This document shows positions 1-14,075 of a stretch of 64,000 bases of DNA, one piece after another. Origin of the DNA: Methanogenium sp. S4BF. GTDB taxonomy: Archaea > Halobacteriota > Methanomicrobia > Methanomicrobiales > Methanomicrobiaceae. Location of the stretch: NCBI RefSeq assembly GCF_029633965.1, contig NZ_CP091277.1, forward strand, positions 1,361,940 through 1,425,939, read 5' to 3'. Within the stretch, counting starts at the first letter, position 1; each line of letters opens with the position of its first letter. A program made the position numbers and the translations under genes. The notes beneath the pieces are model-generated. The model saw only the letters and a program-made list of their open reading frames with translations, did no database searches and was not told where the DNA came from.

Positions 1-141
1 CAGGGGCCTGGCCTCCCATACAGTATATGGAAATTGCTGGTATATTCAGAACGAATGTGGAGGAGTGTGTGATATAATCTCAGTGAGCTAAATATACGTG
101 GCTATACGTGGCACCGCACGTAACCAATGTGATATGCAACA

Positions 142-465: not shown

Positions 466-968
466 TTGTATCTGTCACCTCATCACGTGAATCCTCTTTT
501 GTCTATGCAGAACAAAAACATCGTGAGGTCATTGCAGACTTCTGAATGAACCGGGGACGGAATTTTGGCAAATTATCCCTGAACGTGCGGCACAGGCCAA
601 AATAATTAAACGCATTCACTAAGATATTCACATAAAGAGATGTATTAAGCAATGACCAACAGCTCACGGAACCACGACAAAAAACACTGGAAGACTCCGC
701 AAATGACGATTATCATCAGAAATAACGATGAAAAAGTCCTTTCTGTATGCAAGGATGGACATCAGGCAGGAAACCCTGAATTAACGTACATGACATGCTG
801 GTACAATAACCCCCTATGTGGGGTAATGTGCTCTTTGGTAAGTCCGAGCTAATCTATCAGGCATCCGCGATAACCGATGTAATTTCGGAAAATACCGTAA
901 TTACCGCACATCCGTTGAATCACCATCACCGGCGGAAAAAAACCTGCATCCGCACGTTCCCTTCCCGC
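466..968. other. Mostly empty stretch before the radical SAM relic
   Basis: Apart from the 66-codon ORF at 652-852 described separately, I see no gene here. An AT-rich element (AAAATAATTAAAC, about 599-611) could be a TATA box for that ORF. No repeats or RNA genes were recognised. The stretch looks like decayed intergenic DNA flanking a degraded radical SAM gene copy. Confidence 0.4.
652..852 (+). CDS. Possible small peptide gene with Cys-rich C-terminus
   Basis: A 66-residue ORF with a charged, polar N-terminal half and a C-terminal third carrying three cysteines among Trp, Tyr and Asn (TCWYNNPLCGVMC). This leader-plus-core look is what a radical-SAM-modified precursor peptide could have. 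It lies upstream of a decayed radical SAM gene end and about 0.9 kb before the intact maturation locus. A TATA-like element sits about 45 bases upstream, and the ribosome-binding site (AGAGATG) is only fair. Nothing shows that it is expressed or modified, so chance is a real alternative. Confidence 0.3.
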   Translation: MTNSSRNHDKKHWKTPQMTIIIRNNDEKVLSVCKDGHQAGNPELTYMTCWYNNPLCGVMCSLVSPS

Positions 969-1480: not shown

Positions 1481-1550
1481 CAAATTTTAATATAACAGAC
1501 GATTCTGATTGAACATAGCAGAGAACAGGAATCATCATCGGATTCACTTC

Positions 1551-2081
1551 ATGAAACAAGCAGCCATACACCGATTCATCGGAGGATTTCTCATTATTCT
1601 CATGCTCTGCAGCGGAATAGGGAATGCGTCAGATGATATTGAGACAGATCGTTTTATTTCACAACTTCAATCGGCACTGAATGCACATGAGAATGGGAAA
1701 ACTGAGCAGGCCATCTTTATGATAGATAATGCTTCAGAAACCTATCTGCATACGAACTGGAGCTATTACATCTGCGGATACCTGATCTCAGAGATGGGGG
1801 ACGATGAACGGGCTCTCGTGCACTTAAATAAAGCACTGGAAACCGACAGCACCTATGCTCAGGCATGGTATTACAAAGGGAAGGCATTGTCTGGTCTGGG
1901 AAGAGACCGGGAAGCTGCGGAGTGTTTTGCCCGTGCAGAAGAACTTGATGAACGGTATACAGTTCCCTGGACAGAAAAATGGCCGGTCAGCATCATTTTC
2001 AGGAATCTGACATTGATATATCTGGTTCTTGCATTCGGAGGACTGGGCATCTATATCGCAAAACGGGAAGGAAAATTTTGA
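1551..2081 (+). CDS. Membrane-anchored TPR protein
   Basis: A 176-residue protein with an N-terminal hydrophobic segment (about residues 8-24), then two or three tetratricopeptide-like helix pairs (A-Y-KGKAL-GLGR and A-ECF-RA-EL patterns), and a C-terminal transmembrane helix near residues 146-168 followed by a basic tail. TPR repeats serve protein-protein contacts. I chose ATG 1551 because it places the hydrophobic signal at the N-terminus; a TTG 42 bases upstream keeps the frame open. It ends 49 bases before the exporter start and probably shares its transcript. It could organise the peptide-maturation enzymes or the exporter at the membrane, which is inferred from context only. Confidence 0.7.
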   Translation: MKQAAIHRFIGGFLIILMLCSGIGNASDDIETDRFISQLQSALNAHENGKTEQAIFMIDNASETYLHTNWSYYICGYLISEMGDDERALVHLNKALETDSTYAQAWYYKGKALSGLGRDREAAECFARAEELDERYTVPWTEKWPVSIIFRNLTLIYLVLAFGGLGIYIAKREGKF

Positions 2082-2130
2082 TGAAGGTTCTTTCGTACGC
2101 ACTTGTGTCACCGGTGGTCAGAGGAATTCG

Positions 2131-3936
2131 ATGAAGGTACCGGAGAGAATCCGGGCCATATCCGGATTTGTCAGGGGGCTCTTTGTCATCCCCCAACGGG
2201 AGCATATTCGCCTCAACTCCCGCGATCTGACTTTTTTTCTGAAATATCTGCGACCGGTGATGCACCTTGCGGTTCTCTGTATTCTCTTCAATATCCTGCT
2301 CAGTGGCGTAAAGGTGCTTTACCCCCTGACGACAAAGATCCTTATTGACAATATCTTTCTCGGCAATGACCCTGCAGGCATCATTCAGGAGCTAAACACC
2401 CTTCTTCCGGCATGGATGGTCACACAGATCTCATGGATCTTTTATTCCCTGACAGCCCTCATTATCGCGGTTCTCCTGCTCGGAGTGCTCACCGTTGTTC
2501 TTCAGGTTTCCATCAGTTATGTAACCGTCTGTTTCCGGGAAGCCTATACCTTTCATCTCCAGACCGATCTCTTCAGTCATGTGCTGCGGTTTCCCATAGC
2601 GTATTTCCGTTCCCATCAGACCGGCTACATCATGTCGCGCCTGACAGAGGATGTCAGTGTTCTGGAGTATATCTTCTCGCAGTTTCTCCCCCAGATGCTG
2701 TCAAATATTACCTATATCATCATGTCAGTCGGCATTTTATTTGCCCTCAACACCCGGCTGACATCCCTCGTGATTGTGCTGGCCCCCCTCTTTCTGGTCG
2801 GCAATTTCTTTTTTGTCAGGTACATCCGGGCAGTTACGTACGAGGAGCGGGAGCGGCGGGCCGACATCTCAAAGGATCTCCAAGAGATTATTACCGGCAT
2901 CGAGAGTGTCAAGGTTCATACCGCAGAGCGGCGTGAATACCAGCGGCTTTCATCAGCGCTCTCTGCAGCCATTGACACCCGCATCAGAAATACGATGCTG
3001 AACAGTTTTTCCCAGCAGGTGCGGTTCGGCACCCAGTCCCTGATTATGCTCACGGTACTCTGGTTTGGGGGTAATGCTGTTCTTGCAGGCAGTATGACAG
3101 TGGGGGATTTTGTGGCATATACCGCCTATATCGCCACATTTGCCGGAGCGATGAATTCACTGCTGTCTTTTCCCATCCTCCTGCAGCCGGCATTTACCTC
3201 GGCCGAACGGATACAGGAACTCTTCAGGCTTACGCCTGAGGCAGATGAGAATGAAGGCATCATACCTGAAACCACGGAAGGGACCATCACCTTTTCAGAT
3301 GTCTCGTTTTCCTATCAGGAGAATGTACCGGTGCTGTCCCATGTCACCCTCACCCTGAAACGTGGGGAAATATATGGTATTTCCGGGAAAACAGGTGCAG
3401 GAAAGACGACACTTATAAGTTTGATTCTGTCTTTTTACCGCCCGGATACCGGAACTATTCTTTTAGACGGGAGAGATATTGCCACCCTGAACGGTACATG
3501 GCTCAGGGAGCAGATTTCAGTTGTTTCACAAGACCTCTTTCTTTTCAATAAAACGATCAGGGAAAACATCCTCTACAGCAGGCCGGATGCGACCGATGAT
3601 GACGTCATTGCAGCAGCAACCAGGGCACAGATACACGATGAAATTCTGGCACTACCTCACGGATATGATACGGTGGTCGGTGAACGGGGCACCCAGCTAT
3701 CTGTTGGGCAGCGGCAGCGGATTTCTATTGCCCGTGCATTTCTAAAAGACGCCCCGATTCTTATCCTGGACGAGCCAACATCTGCACTGGATGAACGGAC
3801 AGAAGAGGCCCTCATTCCTCTCCTGAAAGCACTCTCTGCAGACCGGACAACGATTCTGATATCCCACCGCCCCTCGGTCCTCAGGATTACAGACATCATT
3901 TACGTGGTGAAGGACGGGACGGTTTATATGAAATAA
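2131..3936 (+). CDS. ABC exporter, fused membrane and ATPase domains
   Basis: A 601-residue half-transporter of the type I exporter family. About six transmembrane helices fill residues 40-320; the nucleotide-binding domain follows with Walker A (GKTGAGKTT), Q-loop region (VVSQDLFLF), signature LSVGQRQR and Walker B (LILDEPTSALD). Two chains should dimerise. There is no N-terminal C39 peptidase domain, so leader removal, if any, must be done elsewhere; the downstream S26-type protease is the obvious candidate. ATG 2131 is preceded by GAGG six bases upstream; an upstream in-frame start overlaps the previous gene. The context (PqqD, radical SAM enzymes, peptide kinase) points to export of a modified peptide, but the cargo is not known from sequence. 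Confidence 0.88.
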   Translation: MKVPERIRAISGFVRGLFVIPQREHIRLNSRDLTFFLKYLRPVMHLAVLCILFNILLSGVKVLYPLTTKILIDNIFLGNDPAGIIQELNTLLPAWMVTQISWIFYSLTALIIAVLLLGVLTVVLQVSISYVTVCFREAYTFHLQTDLFSHVLRFPIAYFRSHQTGYIMSRLTEDVSVLEYIFSQFLPQMLSNITYIIMSVGILFALNTRLTSLVIVLAPLFLVGNFFFVRYIRAVTYEERERRADISKDLQEIITGIESVKVHTAERREYQRLSSALSAAIDTRIRNTMLNSFSQQVRFGTQSLIMLTVLWFGGNAVLAGSMTVGDFVAYTAYIATFAGAMNSLLSFPILLQPAFTSAERIQELFRLTPEADENEGIIPETTEGTITFSDVSFSYQENVPVLSHVTLTLKRGEIYGISGKTGAGKTTLISLILSFYRPDTGTILLDGRDIATLNGTWLREQISVVSQDLFLFNKTIRENILYSRPDATDDDVIAAATRAQIHDEILALPHGYDTVVGERGTQLSVGQRQRISIARAFLKDAPILILDEPTSALDERTEEALIPLLKALSADRTTILISHRPSVLRITDIIYVVKDGTVYMK

Positions 3937-4070: not shown

Positions 4071-4094
4071 TCAACAAAAAAACGATTGATCTAT

Positions 4095-4397
4095 ATGAAT
4101 ACAGAAATAAGTCTCAATTCAGTAATTAAACCGTCGGAAGATGTCGTATCACGGGATGTCATGGGCGAACTTATCATCGTCCCCCTCACCTCCGGAATCG
4201 GCGATATGGAAGACGAGATCTACACCATGAACGACACGGGGCGGGCAGTCTGGGACAGGCTTGACGGAAAGGCCAGTCTTGGTGAGATAGCCAAAGCCCT
4301 TGAAGCCGAATATGACGCTCCCCCCGGTGCAATTGAAACCGACGTGCATGGGATCGCTGCCGAACTGCTCCGGCGGAGAATGGTTGTTGAAGTCTGA
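4095..4397 (+). CDS. PqqD-like peptide-binding protein
   Basis: A 100-residue protein with the PqqD fold pattern: two N-terminal strands, the motif IYTMNDTGRAVWDRLDG, and a helical C-terminal half (LGEIAKALEAEYDAP...AAELLRRRMVVEV). PqqD domains are RiPP recognition elements that hold the leader of a precursor peptide and deliver it to a radical SAM or other modifying enzyme. Start ATG 4095 fits a leaderless transcript from the TATA box at 4058; a TTG three codons upstream is less likely. The end overlaps the start of the peptidase-GNAT gene, so the two are translationally coupled. It is the strongest single sign that this locus modifies a peptide. Confidence 0.88.
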   Translation: MNTEISLNSVIKPSEDVVSRDVMGELIIVPLTSGIGDMEDEIYTMNDTGRAVWDRLDGKASLGEIAKALEAEYDAPPGAIETDVHGIAAELLRRRMVVEV

Positions 4398-5406
4398 ACA
4401 GACCAGCACGATTGAACCGGAGAAAGACAGGAGTGTATATACCAGTAAAATACGGCTTGAACTCCTCAAGGCCGTCACAGAACGGGGAAAACTCTTCCGC
4501 TTCCGTGCACCCGGATTCAGCATGTACCCGTTCATCAGGAACGGTGATATCATCACCGTCGCCCCCCTGCCTGAAAACGGCCCGGAGACCGGCGATGTGG
4601 TGGCATTTGTCCACCCCGGCACCGGCAACCTGATCGTCCACCGGGTGGTTGAAAAGACCGACCGCGGCTACCTGATCCGGGGAGACAACACTGAGGGGCC
4701 GGATGGGACGATTCCTGCATCCAGCCTCATCGGAGTCGTCGTCAGGGTCGAGCATAAGGAAAGGGATGCAGCAGTAGCAGGGATCAGGTATGGGCGAAGA
4801 CCGATAGCCATGCTCAGCAGAACGGGTCACCTCCGTAAGATCACCAGAACTATCAGCCATTTCAAAGGAGCGGGTGCAGCAGGTCTACAGACAGCCCAGA
4901 AATTCGCATTATACCGGCGGGTGGCAGGCTCATTAAAACCCCGGATATCCATCGCGGAAGCGGATGATCAGGACATGAACAACTTCTACAGCGGGTGGAA
5001 TTATCATCCTGACCAGCCGCCATACCGACCCGACCCGCTGGTGACGAATTTCGTTGCAAAAGACGGCAAAGAGATCGTCGGCTTCGTCCAGCTTATGCGT
5101 CACCCTGAATCCCATCATCCCTACGCCGGATATTGGCTTATCGACCTGATGGTCAGGGTACCATACCGCGGCATGGGCATTGGGAGAGACCTCTCAGAAC
5201 AGGTGATCCTGATGGCCGAACAGGAGGGGGCACCGGAATTGTCTCTCATTGTCGGGGAAACGAACAGACCAGCCATATCGCTCTACCGGAAGCTTGGGTT
5301 CGAACCACTCACACAACCGGAGCTGGAGCAGCAAATAAGCGATGAGTATGCATCGACCGGGATTCGGCGGATAGCAATGCACAGGATCTGCGAACGCAGA
5401 ACATAA
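4387..5406 (+). CDS. S26 signal-peptidase-like / GNAT acetyltransferase fusion
   Basis: Two unrelated enzymes in one chain of about 339 residues. Residues 38-125 carry an S26 peptidase of the archaeal/ER type: serine in PGFSMYP (about S45), histidine in LIVHRVV (about H85) and aspartate in RGDN (about D100); bacterial enzymes use lysine instead of this histidine. I see no membrane anchor. Residues 170-335 form a GNAT domain with the acetyl-CoA loop RVPYRGMGIG and the late motif SLYRKLGFE. TTG 4387 (or 4384) is the likely start, with GGAG eight bases upstream inside the pqqD-like gene. By context the protease could remove a leader and the GNAT acetylate the freed peptide, a functional inference. 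Confidence 0.85.
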   Translation: MKSEQTSTIEPEKDRSVYTSKIRLELLKAVTERGKLFRFRAPGFSMYPFIRNGDIITVAPLPENGPETGDVVAFVHPGTGNLIVHRVVEKTDRGYLIRGDNTEGPDGTIPASSLIGVVVRVEHKERDAAVAGIRYGRRPIAMLSRTGHLRKITRTISHFKGAGAAGLQTAQKFALYRRVAGSLKPRISIAEADDQDMNNFYSGWNYHPDQPPYRPDPLVTNFVAKDGKEIVGFVQLMRHPESHHPYAGYWLIDLMVRVPYRGMGIGRDLSEQVILMAEQEGAPELSLIVGETNRPAISLYRKLGFEPLTQPELEQQISDEYASTGIRRIAMHRICERRT

Positions 5407-6570
5407 ATGACGGATAGTATCATGACGGGACAATTTATCACCGAACTAAAAATTCAGGACTTCAAACTCTGGGATGAAATGAAGGAAAAACGGGCATGCT
5501 TCTCCTTCACCCTTGAACTGACCGCACGGTGCAACAACAACTGCACACACTGTTACATCAACCTCCCGCCGAATGATGCAGGCGCACGGGAACGGGAGCT
5601 GAACGCCGACCAGATCATGGATATTGCCGATCAGGCCATCGCTCTCGGAGCGATCTGGTGCAATATTACCGGCGGCGAACCCCTGCTCAGGCCGGACTTC
5701 ACGGAGATCTATCTCGGCCTGAAGAAGAAGGGACTCCTCGTATCGGTCATGACGAATGCGACCCTGATTCACGAAGAGCATGTGGCCTTATTCCGCAGGT
5801 ATCCGCCGCGGGACATCGAGATCACCGTCTATGGCGTGACAAAAGAGACCTATGAAGCGGTCAGCCGCATCCCCGGCTCATATGATGCGTTCATGCAGGG
5901 CCTTACCCTCCTGCAGGATGCGGGTGTGAAGATCCGGCTCAAGTCCATGGCAATCCACTCAAACCTCCATGAAACAGACAAGATTGCTGAATTCTGCCGG
6001 GCACGGACCAAGGATTACTACCGATTCGATCCCCAGCTACACCTGAGAATGGATCATGACCCGATAAGAAATGAAGAAATCAGGAACGAGCGGCTTACCC
6101 CCAAAGAGGTTGTTGCACTGGAGGCAGCAGATCCTGACCGGCGGGAGGCACTTGCAAATGGTTGCGACAGGATGATCATTCCGGAATTCTGCAATATCAG
6201 CTGCAATCATCTCTTCCATTGCGGTGCCGGCATCGGCGATTTCGTCGTCAGCCCTGACGGGATGATGAGATTGTGTATGTCTCTCTGCCACCACGATTGC
6301 ATCTATGACCTGACAACAGGGACGCTTGCAGACGCCTGGTACAATTTCATCCCGAAAGTGAGGGATATGCATTCAGATGATACAACATTTCTGGAGACCT
6401 GCCGGAAATGCCCAATCATCAATCTCTGCCTCTGGTGTCCGGCCCATGCCGATATCGAGACCGGCCTTCTGGACGGATCGGTTGACTACTTCTGTAGTGT
6501 CGCCCATGCACGGGCAGGGTCTCTCGGATATACCGGAACGAAACCGAATTTTACCACAACAGAACCCTGA
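5407..6570 (+). CDS. Radical SAM/SPASM peptide-modifying enzyme
   Basis: A 387-residue radical SAM protein. CNNNCTHC at residues 42-49 binds the 4Fe-4S cluster that cleaves S-adenosylmethionine, and TGGEPLLRPDF is the SAM-binding GGE motif. The C-terminal third has a SPASM-like set of cysteines (CGAG, CMSLCHHDC, CRKCPIINLCLWC, FC) for auxiliary Fe-S clusters, as in enzymes making Cys, Tyr or Lys cross-links in peptides. There is no N-terminal RiPP recognition domain, consistent with the separate PqqD. It begins immediately after the stop of the peptidase-GNAT gene and ends before a T-tract, closing the pqqD operon. It is paralogous to the enzymes at 8404 and 10404. Confidence 0.9.
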   Translation: MTDSIMTGQFITELKIQDFKLWDEMKEKRACFSFTLELTARCNNNCTHCYINLPPNDAGARERELNADQIMDIADQAIALGAIWCNITGGEPLLRPDFTEIYLGLKKKGLLVSVMTNATLIHEEHVALFRRYPPRDIEITVYGVTKETYEAVSRIPGSYDAFMQGLTLLQDAGVKIRLKSMAIHSNLHETDKIAEFCRARTKDYYRFDPQLHLRMDHDPIRNEEIRNERLTPKEVVALEAADPDRREALANGCDRMIIPEFCNISCNHLFHCGAGIGDFVVSPDGMMRLCMSLCHHDCIYDLTTGTLADAWYNFIPKVRDMHSDDTTFLETCRKCPIINLCLWCPAHADIETGLLDGSVDYFCSVAHARAGSLGYTGTKPNFTTTEP

Positions 6571-6625: not shown

Positions 6626-6820
6626 ATGAACGCTCCATCTCATATTCATGCTCAACATGACAGCCATCCATTTTTGGGCGTACCACATTCCTGTCAGACC
6701 ACAAAAACAATCCTGCACCTGACGGCACTATACTGCAAGGGTGAAGCATCCCGCAGTCAGGAACGGATCATCCCCCCGAACTTCTGCCGGAACGGCAAAA
6801 TTAAAGTTTATAATTCCTGA
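6626..6820 (+). CDS. Possible 64-residue peptide gene in the maturation locus
   Basis: A short ORF after the radical SAM gene, overlapping the 3' end of the convergent nucleotidyltransferase gene by 20 bases. The product would have a His-rich start (HIHAQHDSH), two cysteines 14 residues apart (CQTTK...LYC) and a third near the end (NFCRN). Its place among the enzymes makes it a candidate precursor peptide, but the ribosome-binding site is weak (AAAGAAAG), no promoter is visible and it lies after a T-tract. Chance is about as likely as function. Confidence 0.22.
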   Translation: MNAPSHIHAQHDSHPFLGVPHSCQTTKTILHLTALYCKGEASRSQERIIPPNFCRNGKIKVYNS

Positions 6821-8072
6821 TACTCATCCATCTCCGGATATGCGAAAACGGGATATCAAGCGGGGATTCTGATTGTTTGTAGTGATTCATCGATTCCCGA
6901 TGGGGAAGAATGAACCGGTAACAGTAGCGTACTCGCTCATAATGGGAAGGCATGCCCTGCAGGGTAAGATACATTCCGGAGTGGATACAACTTCCACGGT
7001 TTTTTGCATACCTCCACAATCGCTCCTCCCGGTCAGATGCAGCCCCCCAACCGGAAAAATCCGCAAATGCTTCCGGAATGGCAGCTCCTGCCCAGAGAGA
7101 ACCGGCAGTCAGTGCAATCTCAAGAGGAATCCGGATATGATTTTGTACACATGTGGAGCGGAGCGTTTCCCAGTCTTCCGGCACACGGAGAGAATTCATG
7201 AGTGAGGCAATATCATACACCCAGTCAAGGCGAAGAGACTGGTGCTGGAATACATGATGATAGGCAAGAAACGTGAGATGACTGGCAGGGTCCAGCGTAT
7301 AACAGGAGAGATCATCCGCATGGATGGGTATTTTGCGATCAAAGGCATTGTCAAGCCAGTCCGGGGAGAACATTCCATAGCCGGAATCGGTAACCCAGTG
7401 CAATTCGACGGGAATGCCCTTCCCCGGCAGATAATAATTCTGATGGTGGGCAGAGTAGCGGGATGTGTGGAACGTTTTATTCGGACAGGAATAGCCAAGT
7501 TTCTCAAAGATCGGTTCACACCGGATGATATCATCCGGTTTTACGAGAATATCAATGTCTGAAGAATGCCGCAGTGCCGGGTCGGGATAGACCGTGCGTG
7601 CCAGTGCATGGCCTTTGAGAAGAATGGCAGGTATGCCGGCATCTTCCAGTGCGGTGGTAACGGTCCGCACCTGTCTTCCCAGACGAAGGTTCCGTGCACA
7701 CCCTTCCATGAATATCCGCGAGAAAAATGCCATGATTTCTTTGGGCGGAAGGCATTCCTCATCCCATTCTTTCAGATGAAATGCCAGAAGGGGAAAGATT
7801 CCGTGAGGACGCAGGAGTGTCAGCAGGGCATCCCACTCTTCTGTGGAGCAGGCAGGGGGAACGACGGGGGTGTTTCGTATGATACAGAGAAGGTACTCCA
7901 GAAGATCATCCGGGAGTGCAAGGAGCGCATTCGGGGGATCACCCGCCAATGGAACGATTGTGTGGAGGTTCCGGATGGATTTTTGTCCGGCACAATGTTT
8001 AAATCCAATACTCTGAACCGGTGCGGGTGACGCCATAATAAAAAAATATGGTCTCCTGCCAGATATGTCCAT
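6801..8072 (-). CDS. NTP_transf_5-type nucleotidyltransferase
   Basis: About 423 residues, of the uncharacterised nucleotidyltransferase family that travels with lasso-peptide, PqqD and HPr-kinase-like genes. The core is GHALARTVYPDPALRHSSDIDILV in the middle of the chain: a lysine/glycine helix start followed by SDIDIL, the paired acidic residues that bind metal and nucleotide in this superfamily. It would transfer a nucleotide or phosphate group, possibly to a peptide already phosphorylated by the kinase encoded at 8404; this pairing is known from bacterial peptide clusters, while the substrate here is inferred. The gene points the opposite way from its neighbours. Start choice is uncertain; ATG 8036 (MASPAPVQ) is an alternative. 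Confidence 0.8.
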   Translation of the reverse strand: MDISGRRPYFFIMASPAPVQSIGFKHCAGQKSIRNLHTIVPLAGDPPNALLALPDDLLEYLLCIIRNTPVVPPACSTEEWDALLTLLRPHGIFPLLAFHLKEWDEECLPPKEIMAFFSRIFMEGCARNLRLGRQVRTVTTALEDAGIPAILLKGHALARTVYPDPALRHSSDIDILVKPDDIIRCEPIFEKLGYSCPNKTFHTSRYSAHHQNYYLPGKGIPVELHWVTDSGYGMFSPDWLDNAFDRKIPIHADDLSCYTLDPASHLTFLAYHHVFQHQSLRLDWVYDIASLMNSLRVPEDWETLRSTCVQNHIRIPLEIALTAGSLWAGAAIPEAFADFSGWGAASDREERLWRYAKNRGSCIHSGMYLTLQGMPSHYERVRYCYRFILPHRESMNHYKQSESPLDIPFSHIRRWMSIRNYKL

Positions 8073-8403
8073 TGATTGAAAACGGGGCTGCTGTTCAGTG
8101 ATGACATCATACAGGGAGCGATATCACCGGAAAATGGAGACAAACCTCATTCATGCAGCTGAAATTCATACCCTTTTTTCCGCCGGATGGTCCAAAGAAT
8201 CCAAATCTCCCTTAACAATAATTATCAACTATTCTCACCCATTTTTCCTTATTATCGATACAGATTATCAGTCCGATGTCCCTTTGGGATGGAAATTACC
8301 CTCAGAAATGGCATCCGGTTGAAACAGCCAAATGACCAGAAAATAGAATGAAATACTGTGATTTTTGCTCTGTAAATGATATTCAAAACCATTTGGATGC
8401 CTT
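8073..8403. other. Divergent intergenic region between nucleotidyltransferase and kinase fusion
   Basis: This stretch must hold promoters for both flanking genes. AT-rich candidates are TTCCTTATTATCGATA (about 8246-8261) and GTAAATGATATT (about 8371-8382). A 74-codon ORF crosses it (8098-8322) but has no ribosome-binding site or recognisable feature. No repeats were seen. Confidence 0.35.
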
Positions 8404-10407
8404 ATGACCGACTACTTATCCATTAAACAAACCGACCGGATGCCCCGTCTTCCCCTCTCCGGTTCCATCGATCTCACCTATCGGTGCAACAACAACTGCT
8501 GTCACTGCTGGCTGAGAATTCCGCCGGGTGCTCCGGAAAAAAAGCAGGAACTCTCCTTTGATGAGATCTGCCATATCGTCGACGACGCACGTGCTATGGG
8601 ATGCCGGCACTGGTCCATCTCCGGGGGCGAACCGATGCTCCGGCCGGATTTTGCCGAAATATTTGATTACATAACGAGCCGGGCCTCTTCATACTCGATC
8701 AATACGAACGGCACGATGATCACCCCGGAGATCGCTCAACTCATGACGCGGAAAGGGAACAAGATGATTGCGCTCTACGGTGCGACAGAAGCGGTTCATG
8801 ACCGGATCACCCGGAGTCCCGGTTCATTTCAGGCCACGATGCGGGGATTTGAACTCCTGAAAGAGGCGGGAGCCGGTTTCACCGTCCAGCTTATTCCGAT
8901 GAAAGACAGTTATCATGAATATCCTGCAATGATTGAACTGGCACAGTCTCTGACCCCCCACTGGAGAGTAGGTGCCCCCTGGCTGTACCTGTCTGCATGC
9001 GGCTCGGCTGAGAAGAACGCTGAGATCGCAGCCCAGCGACTTTCCCCGGCAGATGTGATAGCCCTGGATACGCCAAACATCTCGTATGAAGAGGAGCACA
9101 GAACAGAGGATTCCTGCAGTCCGAATCCAACAGATGACCGTCTCTTTGCCCGGTGTATAGAGAAAAGGAGGGACTTTCATGTGGATCCGTATGGGATGAT
9201 GTCCTTCTGCTGCTTCATCAAAGATCCCGCAATGAGATATGACCTGCGAACAGGCAGTTTCGAGGAAGCCTGGGAGGTGTTCATCCCCTCCCTCGCAGAT
9301 ACGGTCAGAGGGGGAGAGGAATACCGGGAGAACTGCGGGTCGTGTGAGAAACGGTCAGACTGCCGGTGGTGTCCGGTCTATGGGTACCTGGAAACCGGCA
9401 GGTATTCTGCAAAAGTCCCGTATCTCTGTGAAGTCGCTGATGAAGCAAAGAAATTCAGGGAAGAATGGCAAAAGAAACACCGCCGCTATTTCAGAATTGC
9501 AGGCATCACCGCCCGTTTGGAGAGTGACCTTGACTTTGATGAAACAGGCTTTGCCGAGAAACTGGTGCCCTTCATGGTCGATGGTCCGGGTGATGACAAT
9601 GTCACCATCCGGCATTACTTTGAACTGCCTGACCTTGCAGGAAAGGATCTCGGCAGGGAACTCTACCGGAAGGCGCCGTGGGCAATCTCCCGGAAAGGGG
9701 ATACCTGGTTCTATCAGGGCATCTCACCAAATCCTGAGGACCAGGGTATCCACAGGGTGGCAGTCTTTAGCGGAGATTATACAAAGGCAACTATTTACAG
9801 CCCTCCAGAAGATGGCGAACGAATCCGGACCGAAGGGTGGCAGTCGCTCTCCCTCTTCCCGACGGACCAGATCTGGGTTGCCCCGCTTCTTGCTGAACGG
9901 AATGCTGCCCTGATCCATTCCGGTGCGGTCTCTCTTGACGGGCAGGGCCTGATGTTTGTCGGGCATTCCGAGGCAGGCAAGTCTACCACGATGACGCTTC
10001 TCAGGCAGGCAGCAGAGGAGAGCCTGAACAGTTCACCGTTTGAGGTTGAAATCCTCTGTGATGACAGAAATATTGTCAGGCGCCATGATGACGGCTGGTA
10101 TGTCCACGGGACATGGAGTCATGGGGATGTCCCCGATGTCTCACCGGCATCAGCACCGCTTAGGGGGATACTGTTCCTGAAACAGGACACAGAAAATGCG
10201 ATAAAACCGCTTACGGATAAGAAACAATGTTTCAGGATACTTTTTGACACCCTGATCAGACCAATGGGAACAGCCGAATGGTGGGACAGGGAGATGGAGA
10301 TCCTTGAGAGGATTGTTACCGAGGTCCCCTGCTATGTCATGCATTTTGATAAGAGCGGTGCGATTGTGCCGGAGATTCGCGAGCTTATCAGGAACGATGC
10401 TCTGTGA
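8404..10407 (+). CDS. Radical SAM/SPASM enzyme fused to HPr-kinase-like domain
   Basis: A 667-residue two-enzyme fusion. Residues 20-355 are a radical SAM protein: CNNNCCHC at 28-35, SGGEPMLRPDF, and late SPASM-like cysteines (CGSCEKRSDCRWC, YLC). From about residue 370 the chain becomes an HPr-kinase/phosphorylase-like domain: a strand-rich lead-in, HSGAVSLDG, the P-loop GHSEAGKST at 520-528, then LCDDRN with paired aspartates. HPr-kinase-like proteins in RiPP clusters phosphorylate the precursor peptide. No phosphotransferase-system genes are visible nearby, so a sugar-transport role is unlikely. The stop overlaps the GTG of the next gene by four bases. A fused radical SAM-peptide kinase suggests the two modifications act on the same peptide. 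Confidence 0.9.
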   Translation: MTDYLSIKQTDRMPRLPLSGSIDLTYRCNNNCCHCWLRIPPGAPEKKQELSFDEICHIVDDARAMGCRHWSISGGEPMLRPDFAEIFDYITSRASSYSINTNGTMITPEIAQLMTRKGNKMIALYGATEAVHDRITRSPGSFQATMRGFELLKEAGAGFTVQLIPMKDSYHEYPAMIELAQSLTPHWRVGAPWLYLSACGSAEKNAEIAAQRLSPADVIALDTPNISYEEEHRTEDSCSPNPTDDRLFARCIEKRRDFHVDPYGMMSFCCFIKDPAMRYDLRTGSFEEAWEVFIPSLADTVRGGEEYRENCGSCEKRSDCRWCPVYGYLETGRYSAKVPYLCEVADEAKKFREEWQKKHRRYFRIAGITARLESDLDFDETGFAEKLVPFMVDGPGDDNVTIRHYFELPDLAGKDLGRELYRKAPWAISRKGDTWFYQGISPNPEDQGIHRVAVFSGDYTKATIYSPPEDGERIRTEGWQSLSLFPTDQIWVAPLLAERNAALIHSGAVSLDGQGLMFVGHSEAGKSTTMTLLRQAAEESLNSSPFEVEILCDDRNIVRRHDDGWYVHGTWSHGDVPDVSPASAPLRGILFLKQDTENAIKPLTDKKQCFRILFDTLIRPMGTAEWWDREMEILERIVTEVPCYVMHFDKSGAIVPEIRELIRNDAL

Positions 10408-11597
10408 CAGAAGAGCACTCTTCCCCCTATGCCGTAACAGTCGATGCAACGTCTCATCACTTATGGAAGGATAAAATACCACTCCTTGGCAGGCTGGATA
10501 TGGAGCTAACCGAGCGGTGCAACAACAACTGCATACACTGCTGCATCAACCTGCCCGAGGATGACAAGGATGCCCGCAGGCGTGAGCTGTCAACAGACGA
10601 GATTAAGGGGATCCTTACCGAAGCCGCAGTCCTTGGTGCGATGTCGGTCAGGTTTACCGGAGGGGAACCCCTTATTCGGGATGATTTTACGGAGCTGTAC
10701 CTTTTCGCCCGGAAACTCGGCATGAAGGTCATGCTCTTTACCAACGGACGCCTGATTACTCCTGAAATTGCCGACCTTCTTGCACGTGTCCCTCCGCTTG
10801 AGAAGATAGAGATCACGGTCTACGGAATGACAAAGGAGTCATACGAGGCGGTTGCTCGTGTGCCGGGTTCGTACGATGAGTTCCGGCGGGGTATGCAGCT
10901 TCTCATGGAGAAAGGCATTCCGTTTGTCGTAAAGGGTGCCCTGCTTCCCCCGAACCGGGACGAGATAGATGAATTTGAGGCGTGGGCTGCGACAATTCCG
11001 GCGATGGACACGTCCCCGTCCTATTCAATGTTTTTCGACCTCCGGTGCCGCAGGGACTTTCCGGAGAAGAACCGGCAGATAGCAACACTAAGACTCTCGC
11101 CGGAGGATGGTGTTTCTGTGCTTTCACGGGACCGTGAGCGGTACCTGAAGAGCATGCGGGAGTTTTGCTCAAAGTTTATGCGGCCATCCGGCAAAAAACT
11201 CCTCGCCTGTGGGGCAGGACATGGCGGGTGTGTTGATGCGTACGGCATGTACCAGCCCTGCATGATGCTCAGGCATCCGGACTGTGTGTATGACCTTCGT
11301 TCCGGGTCGCTTGAGGATTCAATGACGAATTATTTCCCAAAACTGCGCGAGATGGAGGCCGAGAATCCCGAATATCTTGCCCGATGCGCCCGATGTTTCA
11401 TCAAAGGCCTCTGCGAGCAGTGCCCGGCAAAGTCGTGGATGGAGCACGGGACGCTCGATACACCGGTGGAATATCTCTGCGGGGTCGCCCATGCACAGGC
11501 ATATGATCTTGGCCTCCTTGAAGAGGATGAGAAGGCATGGGAGGTAGAGGACTGGCAGGAGAGGATTGACCGGTTTGTGAACGAAGAGCACCAATAA
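10404..11597 (+). CDS. Radical SAM/SPASM peptide-modifying enzyme
   Basis: A 397-residue paralog of the enzyme at 5407. The cluster-binding CNNNCIHC is at residues 39-46, FTGGEPLIRDDF follows, and the SPASM-like region has CGAGHGGC, CMMLRHPDC, CARCFIKGLCEQC and YLC. It starts with GTG inside the stop codon of the kinase fusion (GTGA overlap), so the two are co-translated. Its C-terminus is the intact version of the relic at 1122-1274. Three related radical SAM enzymes in one locus imply three separate reactions or three sites on a peptide; which chemistry cannot be read from sequence. Confidence 0.9.
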   Translation: MTEEHSSPYAVTVDATSHHLWKDKIPLLGRLDMELTERCNNNCIHCCINLPEDDKDARRRELSTDEIKGILTEAAVLGAMSVRFTGGEPLIRDDFTELYLFARKLGMKVMLFTNGRLITPEIADLLARVPPLEKIEITVYGMTKESYEAVARVPGSYDEFRRGMQLLMEKGIPFVVKGALLPPNRDEIDEFEAWAATIPAMDTSPSYSMFFDLRCRRDFPEKNRQIATLRLSPEDGVSVLSRDRERYLKSMREFCSKFMRPSGKKLLACGAGHGGCVDAYGMYQPCMMLRHPDCVYDLRSGSLEDSMTNYFPKLREMEAENPEYLARCARCFIKGLCEQCPAKSWMEHGTLDTPVEYLCGVAHAQAYDLGLLEEDEKAWEVEDWQERIDRFVNEEHQ

Positions 11598-12866
11598 ACA
11601 TTTGTCTGTGTGTCTGTCCCCCTACCTCATGGAGGTGGTCAGGCAGTACCTGATTCTATGATTCGACAGGAAAAGAATTTGATAAATGTGTGATGGTGTT
11701 TGAATTCCTGCCATTCATACCATATCATAACATTTTTTCGGGATTTTTTATCTGGCAACGTGTGTTCTTACAGTAACAATGTGAGAATTTCGGAGGCCAT
11801 TGTTAACTTGAGATCGTTGAGGAACAATCGAGTTCACAATATCCGAACTGTTCGATCAGACACCCGAAATAATAGCTACCGGAACCTGTTACCCCCGCTG
11901 TCTTGCAACCCATGATAACGCTCTCTTTACTTTGATGTCTGGTGAGTACGGCCAATGTTGGTGTCTGCCATCCGGCAGTGTTTTTATTCTGTTGTTTTGT
12001 TGACTGGGATTCTATTACATCGGATTGATTACCTGAACGGATATATTTTTGGATTTCAACCGCTGGATTCGCATGCAATCGTCAAAAACAATCCAAATGA
12101 GAATTGCACAGGTTCAATTCCTTGAAATCCCAACAATCTGGTCCGAATCATGCGATGTTCAACCCGTATGTGCCAGCTGAATAATCCCTTTCTTGGTTTT
12201 ATTGGAATTGAGTTCTCCCGGAATTGGACGAAATTGTGATCCATGCAACGACCGGCGAAAGCTTTGAGAAAGCAATCCGTGTTGTTCATGCTGTACTGAG
12301 AAGCCTTCGCCGACAAACCATGAATGTAATTCATGAAGAACAACTGTATCCAGTGTTTATGTGTATCTTCAGCTCGTTGTCACGTCTCGACAAGACGCAA
12401 TACACTCCAGTCCGGTATTAAAGTTGCAGTTATTATGCCCTACATCCGGGGACACAACCGTGTTGTCGCCTTTGCATCCGGCTAAAATTGCTTCCTGAGC
12501 GTGATCTCTTTGATGTACCAGGAGCACCGGGCACTCCCATGACGTCTGTTTCACGATATCTGTTTCCTTTTTACTACCCATAAGGGGCCTTTTTCGCCTC
12601 ACTGCAAAAAGTCTGTCGGTTTGAATACCTGTTTGTGGTATCTGATAGTCGAACGGGGGGAAATGGTACCGGGTGCATACACTTCCTGTCCGGAAAACCA
12701 GCTGTGCCGATAATCCGACAGTTTCGTGAGATCGTTTGTCCACAGACGAGTGAAAATGCGCCTTATTTAATAAAATATTACCACAGGTAATTTTCTACCC
12801 CAAAGGAAATTCTTATGTTGCAATGACTCCACTTTTTAATTATCTATAAGGAGTTCGTGAACATCA
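11598..12866. other. 1.27-kb stretch with no recognisable gene
   Basis: Short ORFs exist on both strands (for example 12369-12743 minus, 124 codons; 12056-12343 minus, 95 codons), but none has a convincing ribosome-binding site or family motif. Frequent frame breaks and AT-rich patches suggest decayed genes, perhaps an old mobile element, but no terminal inverted repeats or transposase motif were identified. The right end carries the mat promoter. A translated search could reveal relics that I cannot name. Confidence 0.4.
12763..12780 (+). promoter_or_regulatory. Probable mat promoter (TATA region)
   Basis: An unbroken A/T run of 18 bases starting TTATTTAATAAAA lies about 90-100 bases before the mat ATG. 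It is the best TATA candidate for the mat-his genes and predicts an untranslated leader of roughly 70 bases ending in AAGGAG. Confidence 0.4.
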
Positions 12867-14075
12867 ATGGGACGCAATATTGCAGTTGAGACACTCAGCG
12901 AAACACCACTCAACAGACAGAAACTGGAACTTGCAGAACGCAAATGCATCGGCCACCCGGACAGTCTTGCAGACGGTATCGCAGAAGCGGTCTCACAGGC
13001 CCTCTCGCGGGCATACCTGGATGAATGCGGCGCTGTGCTGCACCACAACACCGACCAGGGCGAGATTGTGGCAGGAGAGTCCATCCCGCGGTTCGGCGGC
13101 GGCACCATCACCCGGCCCATGTATGTGCTGCTTACCGGGCGTGCCACAAAGACCTTCGACGGCGTGACTGTTCCCACCGACGCGATTGCACTCGAGGCTG
13201 CACGCAACTATCTCTCGAATACGCTGGAATACCTCAACATGAACAAGGATGTCATCGTTGACTGCCGCATGGGGGCAGGTTCGTCTGACCTTCGTGATGT
13301 ATTCCGTGCCTGCAACGGACAGCACCTTCCGCACGCAAACGACACATCCTTCGGCGTGGGGCATGCACCGTTCTCTGATCTTGAGAATGTCATCCTTGCC
13401 GTGAGCAACCACATCGACGGTGTATACCGGCCGAAAAACCCGATCATCGGGACCGATATCAAGATCATGGGTCTGCGCCAGGAAGAGGACATTACCCTCA
13501 CCCTCTGCGTGCCGATGATCGACCGGTTCTGCACGGACATGAACGACTACAAAGAGGCAGTCATCCGTGTCGGCGAAGAGGTGCAGCGGGTCGCATCCGG
13601 CATCACTGACCGCCGTGTGGCAGTGGACATCAACACCGGCGACAACTACGAGGCAGAGGGGGCAATCTTCCTGACGGTGAACGGCACCTCCGCCGAGATG
13701 GGAGACGACGGCTCCGTGGGCCGGGGCAACCGTGCAAACGGGCTTATCACCCCGCACCGCCCGATGAGCATGGAGGCGACCAGCGGAAAGAACCCGATCA
13801 ACCATATCGGAAAGATCTACAACCTCCTCTCCACCGAACTGGCACAGCAGTGTGCACAGGAGCTCGACGGCATCGAGGACCTCTACATCAGGCTCCTCTC
13901 CCAGATCGGACGCCCGATTGACCAGCCGCTCATCGCAGGCGCACAGTATGTGGCAGCAGAGGGAGCGGATACCGCTGTTATCAGCCGCGGCATCGAGGAA
14001 ATAATCGACGCAGGCCTTGCCGACATCACCTCAATCACCGAGCGGGTCATCCGCGGAGAGATGAAGACCTTCTAA
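12867..14075 (+). CDS. mat: Archaeal S-adenosylmethionine synthetase
   Basis: A 402-residue protein of the archaeal methionine adenosyltransferase family, which makes S-adenosylmethionine from methionine and ATP and has a sequence quite distinct from bacterial MetK. Typical segments are [17 protein letters not shown] near the N-terminus, [18 protein letters not shown] in the middle and a C-terminal [20 protein letters not shown]. Length is normal for the family. The start is ATG 12867 with AAGGAG upstream. It is followed after a short gap by hisG, and it lies 1.3 kb from three S-adenosylmethionine-consuming radical SAM genes, probably by coincidence because the enzyme is housekeeping. Confidence 0.96.

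Follow-up and report, generated by a model that had tools for sequence, protein, structure and literature searches.

The window, i.e., the whole 64,000-nucleotide stretch of Methanogenium sp. S4BF DNA that was analysed, harbors at positions 4387..5406 of the forward strand a single uninterrupted open reading frame, which begins with TTG, ends with TAA, and encodes a protein of 339 aa. It comprises an S26/S24-type protease (residues ~17-126), a linker (127-183), and a GNAT acetyltransferase (184-339). The original prediction had placed an S26-type protease and a complete GNAT domain in this one frame, and the Pfam searches of both halves bear it out: Peptidase_S24 matches residues 24-119 with 35.9 bits (cut-off 23.3) and Acetyltransf_1 matches residues 203-305 with 60.2 bits (cut-off 20.7). 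The TTG overlaps the end of the preceding pqqD gene; this start is credible, since GGAG is situated 8 nt upstream of it and an overlapping TTG recurs in G151, a genome from another family of the same order. The presence in G151 of a full-length homolog (query residues 1-335, 57% identity) argues that the fusion is neither a product of chance nor an assembly slip. Comparison of the two fusions revealed that both halves are under purifying selection (dN/dS about 0.09 in the S26 half; pN 0.26 at saturated pS in the GNAT half), with a relaxed linker between them (dN/dS about 0.5).

The fusion gene sits in a cassette for the biosynthesis of a ribosomally synthesized peptide (RiPP). This assignment is based on the precursor genes, featuring a conserved leader and a variable core, together with the adjoining genes of PqqD and three radical-SAM proteins. 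The pqqD gene (4086..4397, +; PF05402, 56.3 bits) encodes a peptide-binding protein of the RRE type and overlaps the start of the fusion. Downstream of the fusion lie radical-SAM protein 1 (5407..6570, +; PF04055, 82.1 bits), with a weakly matching SPASM-like C-terminus (14.7 bits, below the cut-off), an NTP_transf_5 nucleotidyltransferase (6801..8072, -; PF14907, 164.8 bits), radical-SAM protein 2 (8404..10407, +; PF04055), which includes an HprK-like domain (~9460-10404) related to ScmC at a score below the cut-off, and radical-SAM protein 3 (10404..11597, +; PF04055, 83.0 bits). Upstream of pqqD there is an ABC exporter comprising permease and ATPase (2029..3936, +; PF00664, PF00005), preceded by a protein with TPR matches (1509..2081, +) whose membership in the pathway is uncertain. 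In the intact cassettes, the S26 gene directly follows pqqD and directly precedes that of radical-SAM protein 1. No protease other than the S26 was found among the eight cassette genes scanned against NCBIfam and Pfam. In L052, from a sister species of the same genus, positions 8052-13419 harbor a SynChlorMet-type cassette with a true ScmC (246 bits); it includes S26 and nucleotidyltransferase genes and adjoins a pair of TPR and ABC genes resembling that of the window.

A motif scan of short open reading frames returned four precursor genes in the window: 652..852 (+); 11803..12078 (-), with an uncertain start codon; 12369..12581 (-); and 1..91 (+), where the edge of the window cuts the gene and leaves its 3' end only. 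They share the motif WxxPxL…R…E-x-[V/I]L-xx-CK and, behind it, two or three Cys in the core; across 18 aligned precursors, no variation occurs in the W, the P, the CK pair, or two of the Cys columns of the core. The WxxPxL motif is presumably akin to YxxP, a motif of lasso leaders, a likeness we take as a lead only. None of the five precursors tested matched NCBIfam and Pfam gave isolated weak matches only; with no prior description found, the family appears to be undescribed. Its profile matches 11 of the 232 genomes of the order, including all eight that possess a close S26 (a match to the query at E 1e-26 or better). The survey of the neighbors gave the "leader" of the original prediction a concrete identity, namely that of RiPP precursors accompanied by a PqqD-type protein and radical-SAM modifiers.

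The protease half belongs to the S24/S26 serine protease superfamily. Its catalytic residues, Ser45, His85, and Asp100/Asp106, are all unchanged in 15 of 15 aligned S26 proteins (from this order, an Actinomycetota assembly, and Bacilli), so the loss of Ser or His, named earlier as evidence against the proposal, was not encountered among these relatives. In a divergent S26-like protein encoded at the same position, directly after pqqD, in G131 (L103:543-1574, +), the His is kept but Cys replaces the catalytic Ser. That protein, followed directly by a methyltransferase gene (L103:1571-2299, +), was considered as a second S26-GNAT fusion and is not counted as one, since its C-terminal region, to which no domain is assigned, resembles the GNAT profile only weakly (hhalign probability 4.7%) and gave no Pfam GNAT match.

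In the AlphaFold model of the whole chain, most of the S26 part reaches a pLDDT above 90, and its structural neighbors include E. coli signal peptidase (3s04; Z 11.0, rmsd 2.1 A over 97 residues) and LexA/UmuD; Foldseek returned chains of the human signal peptidase complex as the best matches. The Ser-His catalytic type and the fold are common to this domain and the archaeal/ER-type signal peptidase I (S26B). Unlike the archaeal enzyme, to which it is closest, the domain scores just below the equivalog cut-off (TIGR02228, 50.9 bits vs. 51.85), resides in a RiPP cassette, is fused to a GNAT, and lacks an anchor. The latter had been claimed from the letters and stands: no transmembrane stretch was found in the fusion protein, whose top 19-mer hydropathy is 0.9 vs. 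2.3 in a membrane signal peptidase of the order. Another small S26-like protease, that of NiSOD maturation, removes an N-terminal leader; the domain of the window does not reach its cut-off (TIGR02754, 36.1 bits vs. 63.25) and differs from it in context and in the predicted substrate.

The membership of the C-terminal half in the GNAT superfamily and its fold are secure, and this half is RimI/Ard1-like, its substrate class being less secure. The acetyl-CoA loop R261-x-x-G264-x-G266 is present, and Asn293, Tyr300, and Tyr321 are retained. Modelled alone with its relatives, the domain attains a pLDDT of 91.4; in the whole chain, for which few sequences were available, it is modelled poorly. RimI is the top structural match (Z 16.0) with Ard1 and NatC close behind, so that RimI, PaiA, Ard1, and NatC are tied as neighbors at Z about 16; polyamine and phosphinothricin acetyltransferases are level with the RimI-like ones, and the RimI equivalog (TIGR01575) gives 37.5 bits, far under its cut-off of 86.4. 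Within the order, close relatives of the domain are confined to G151 and G132, in both cases inside this cassette.

The full fusion is found in two of the 232 genomes of the order (G000 and G151), and a sample of 392 genomes of the phylum yielded full-length matches only in the same two. Of the eight genomes whose S26 is a close match, two carry the intact fusion, one (G132) a separate broken GNAT, and five no GNAT beside the S26. G132 has, between pqqD and a stand-alone S26 gene, a GNAT fragment with 42% identity that contains two in-frame TAG codons; readthrough of these codons was set aside, since the upstream frame is broken as well. In G193, the tail of the S26 protein resembles the linker of the fusion and ends before the GNAT, and in G190 the protein is truncated in the same region; G174, G222, and G134 have no GNAT beside the S26. 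Separate, unlinked halves had been anticipated as a counterargument: no such case with both halves intact was found. The S26 is thus nearly always present in the cassette, with the GNAT as an optional addition; on the simplest reading of this distribution, the accessory came and went. A scan of 84,980 species genomes with short exact peptide patterns, which misses distant cases, yielded four relatives of the S26 and added no intact fusion, and no relatives were found in plasmid records and viral contigs.

Other arrangements of the S26 were also encountered. In L004:466-2076, L031:1468-3240, and L033:547-2103, open frames of 519-591 aa display an HprK-like domain fused ahead of an S26 carrying another C-terminal extension, which indicates that the S26 of such cassettes has been fused in several ways. 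Radical-SAM genes, an S26, and a precursor are present in L039:5518-14776 on a contig titled Actinomycetota (a metagenome-assembled genome), representing either an inter-domain transfer or a binning error.

Known RiPP systems resemble the cassette in part. The SynChlorMet systems (ScmC-F), a name not found in the literature searched, have PqqD, HprK-like, and radical-SAM proteins in common with the window but differ in the precursor; the scores in the window fall far short of their cut-offs (23.6 of 125 bits for ScmC, 22 of 100 for ScmD, at most 81 of 400 for ScmE and ScmF). The lasso clusters of paeninodin and pseudomycoidin share with it the PqqD-type B1 protein, the HPr-kinase homolog, the nucleotidyltransferase, and the C-terminal Ser (PMC8498205). 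Unlike these clusters, the cassette of the window includes radical-SAM proteins; neither the asparagine-synthetase-like lasso cyclase nor the transglutaminase-like B2 protease was found among the eight scanned cassette genes.

The C-terminal Ser deserves attention: it is the last residue in 26 of the 29 precursors across genomes (Thr in one), and Ser accounts for 11% at other core positions of the 29 related sequences. In paeninodin, this residue is phosphorylated by the HPr-kinase homolog, and in pseudomycoidin the nucleotidyltransferase adds hexoses to the phosphate (PMC8498205). Taken with the HprK-like domain, the prevalence of Ser endings suggests, by analogy with paeninodin, that the precursors may be phosphorylated at their C-terminal Ser. 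In G190, the HprK-like half (G190:C10:8722-9636) is broken by two stop codons and two of the three precursors are no longer Ser-terminated, which, coming from one genome, is a hint.

The reading we prefer is that the protein serves an archaeal radical-SAM RiPP cassette by removing the leader with its protease half, to which a GNAT of the N-terminal-acetyltransferase-like type is fused; the probability of this reading is, in our estimate, evenly balanced. The sequence itself shows the fusion, the cassette with its precursor family, the intact catalytic motifs, and the missing anchor. PqqD-type proteins bind leaders, and here PqqD would hold the precursor via the WxxPxL leader motif while the core with its Cys residues is modified by the radical-SAM proteins. 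Next, the leader would be cut off in the cytoplasm by the soluble S26 domain, with Ser45 and His85 as the catalytic residues; the GNAT attached to this domain would acetylate the new alpha-amine with acetyl-CoA, thereby capping the product against aminopeptidases, and the ABC exporter would release it. That the precursor is the substrate of the protease is our inference, and so are the site of cleavage, the atom acetylated, and the succession of the steps. The designation of the S26 as the leader protease stems mainly from its co-occurrence with the precursors in eight of eight genomes, which is an association and not a proof.

Cleavage followed by acetylation has precedents in other RiPP classes. 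In goadsporin (GodH; PMC5303826) and microviridin (MvdB; PMC13039773) biosynthesis, leader removal exposes an N-terminus, which a GNAT then acetylates. In those unrelated classes the two steps are carried out by separate proteins; in the window, both domains reside in one polypeptide. The logic of the original prediction, protease action and acetylation in one chain, stands and is partly supported, gaining strength from the gene context, except that the GNAT proved to be only an optional accessory. Since it was lost or is absent in most relatives, acetylation would not be essential; that just two intact fusions are known is a point against the cut-then-acetylate reading, and so are the tie of the RimI-like matches with other acetyltransferases, the low RimI equivalog score, and the failure to recognize a cleavage site.

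The scarcity of the GNAT is also what one would expect if it served self-protection or tailoring, with the finished peptide or a small molecule as its substrate, and were merely tethered to the protease, and the small-molecule acetyltransferases among its structural neighbors (PaiA, phosphinothricin acetyltransferase) fit this alternative as well. At the same time, a leader protease would be an odd fusion partner for immunity, and the window possesses an ABC exporter, though none was seen near the fusion of G151. This explanation, unlikely as we consider it, fares marginally better than the other alternatives.

Another possibility is that the S26 removes the leader as proposed, but the GNAT acetylates a Lys side chain, that of the invariant CK pair, before cleavage. 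Such a modification is known from albusnodin, where AlbT, a GNAT encoded in the RiPP cluster, acetylates a core Lys before folding (PMC8498205), and the CK Lys is indeed invariant in the 18 aligned precursors. However, it is equally invariant where the GNAT is absent, and eight of the nine cores of the two GNAT-bearing genomes lack any Lys after the CK pair. With almost no other core Lys available in these genomes, side-chain acetylation is disfavored, and we regard it as improbable. Lysine avoidance as a trait tied to the GNAT was also considered and dropped as non-discriminating, since the cores of the GNAT-negative G134 are mostly Lys-free too.

To a similarly low degree of probability, the S26 may not be a leader protease at all, processing instead another protein of the cassette or playing a LexA-like regulatory role. 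The structural closeness of the LexA/UmuD folds and the lack of a recognizable protease cleavage site in the precursors are compatible with this, whereas the linkage of the S26 with PqqD and the precursors, the absence of a DNA-binding domain from the protein, and the lack of a rival protease in the scanned part of the cassette speak for leader removal. It is scarcely credible that the fusion arose by accident in a single lineage and carries a GNAT without function: the intact full-length cases are only two and the GNAT of G132 has decayed, but the GNAT motifs are conserved and purifying selection operates on this domain between two families of the order.

Returning to the leader-removing protease with an attached N-terminal acetyltransferase, the original prediction knew of no described enzyme of this form, and our literature search, which left most subscription journals outside its reach, likewise found no description of an S26-GNAT or any other peptidase-GNAT fusion from a RiPP pathway. 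The protease and acetyltransferase families and the biosynthetic logic are known, and it is the S26-GNAT architecture and the precursor family that we could not find described. More tentatively, and with a probability below even, the fusion could represent a single "cut and cap" polypeptide from an as yet undescribed family of archaeal radical-SAM RiPPs; the product would then carry a cap at either end, an N-terminal acetyl and a C-terminal Ser phosphate, the latter possibly glycosylated.

Among the steps of RiPP biosynthesis, leader removal is in many cases the one understood least, and the RiPPs of archaea have received little exploration. The soluble S26 kept across the cassette family represents a concrete candidate for the leader peptidase of archaeal radical-SAM RiPPs. 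From the GNAT fusion one can predict the fate of the new N-terminus, and from the Ser ending that of the other end of the peptide; both predictions are checkable by mass spectrometry.
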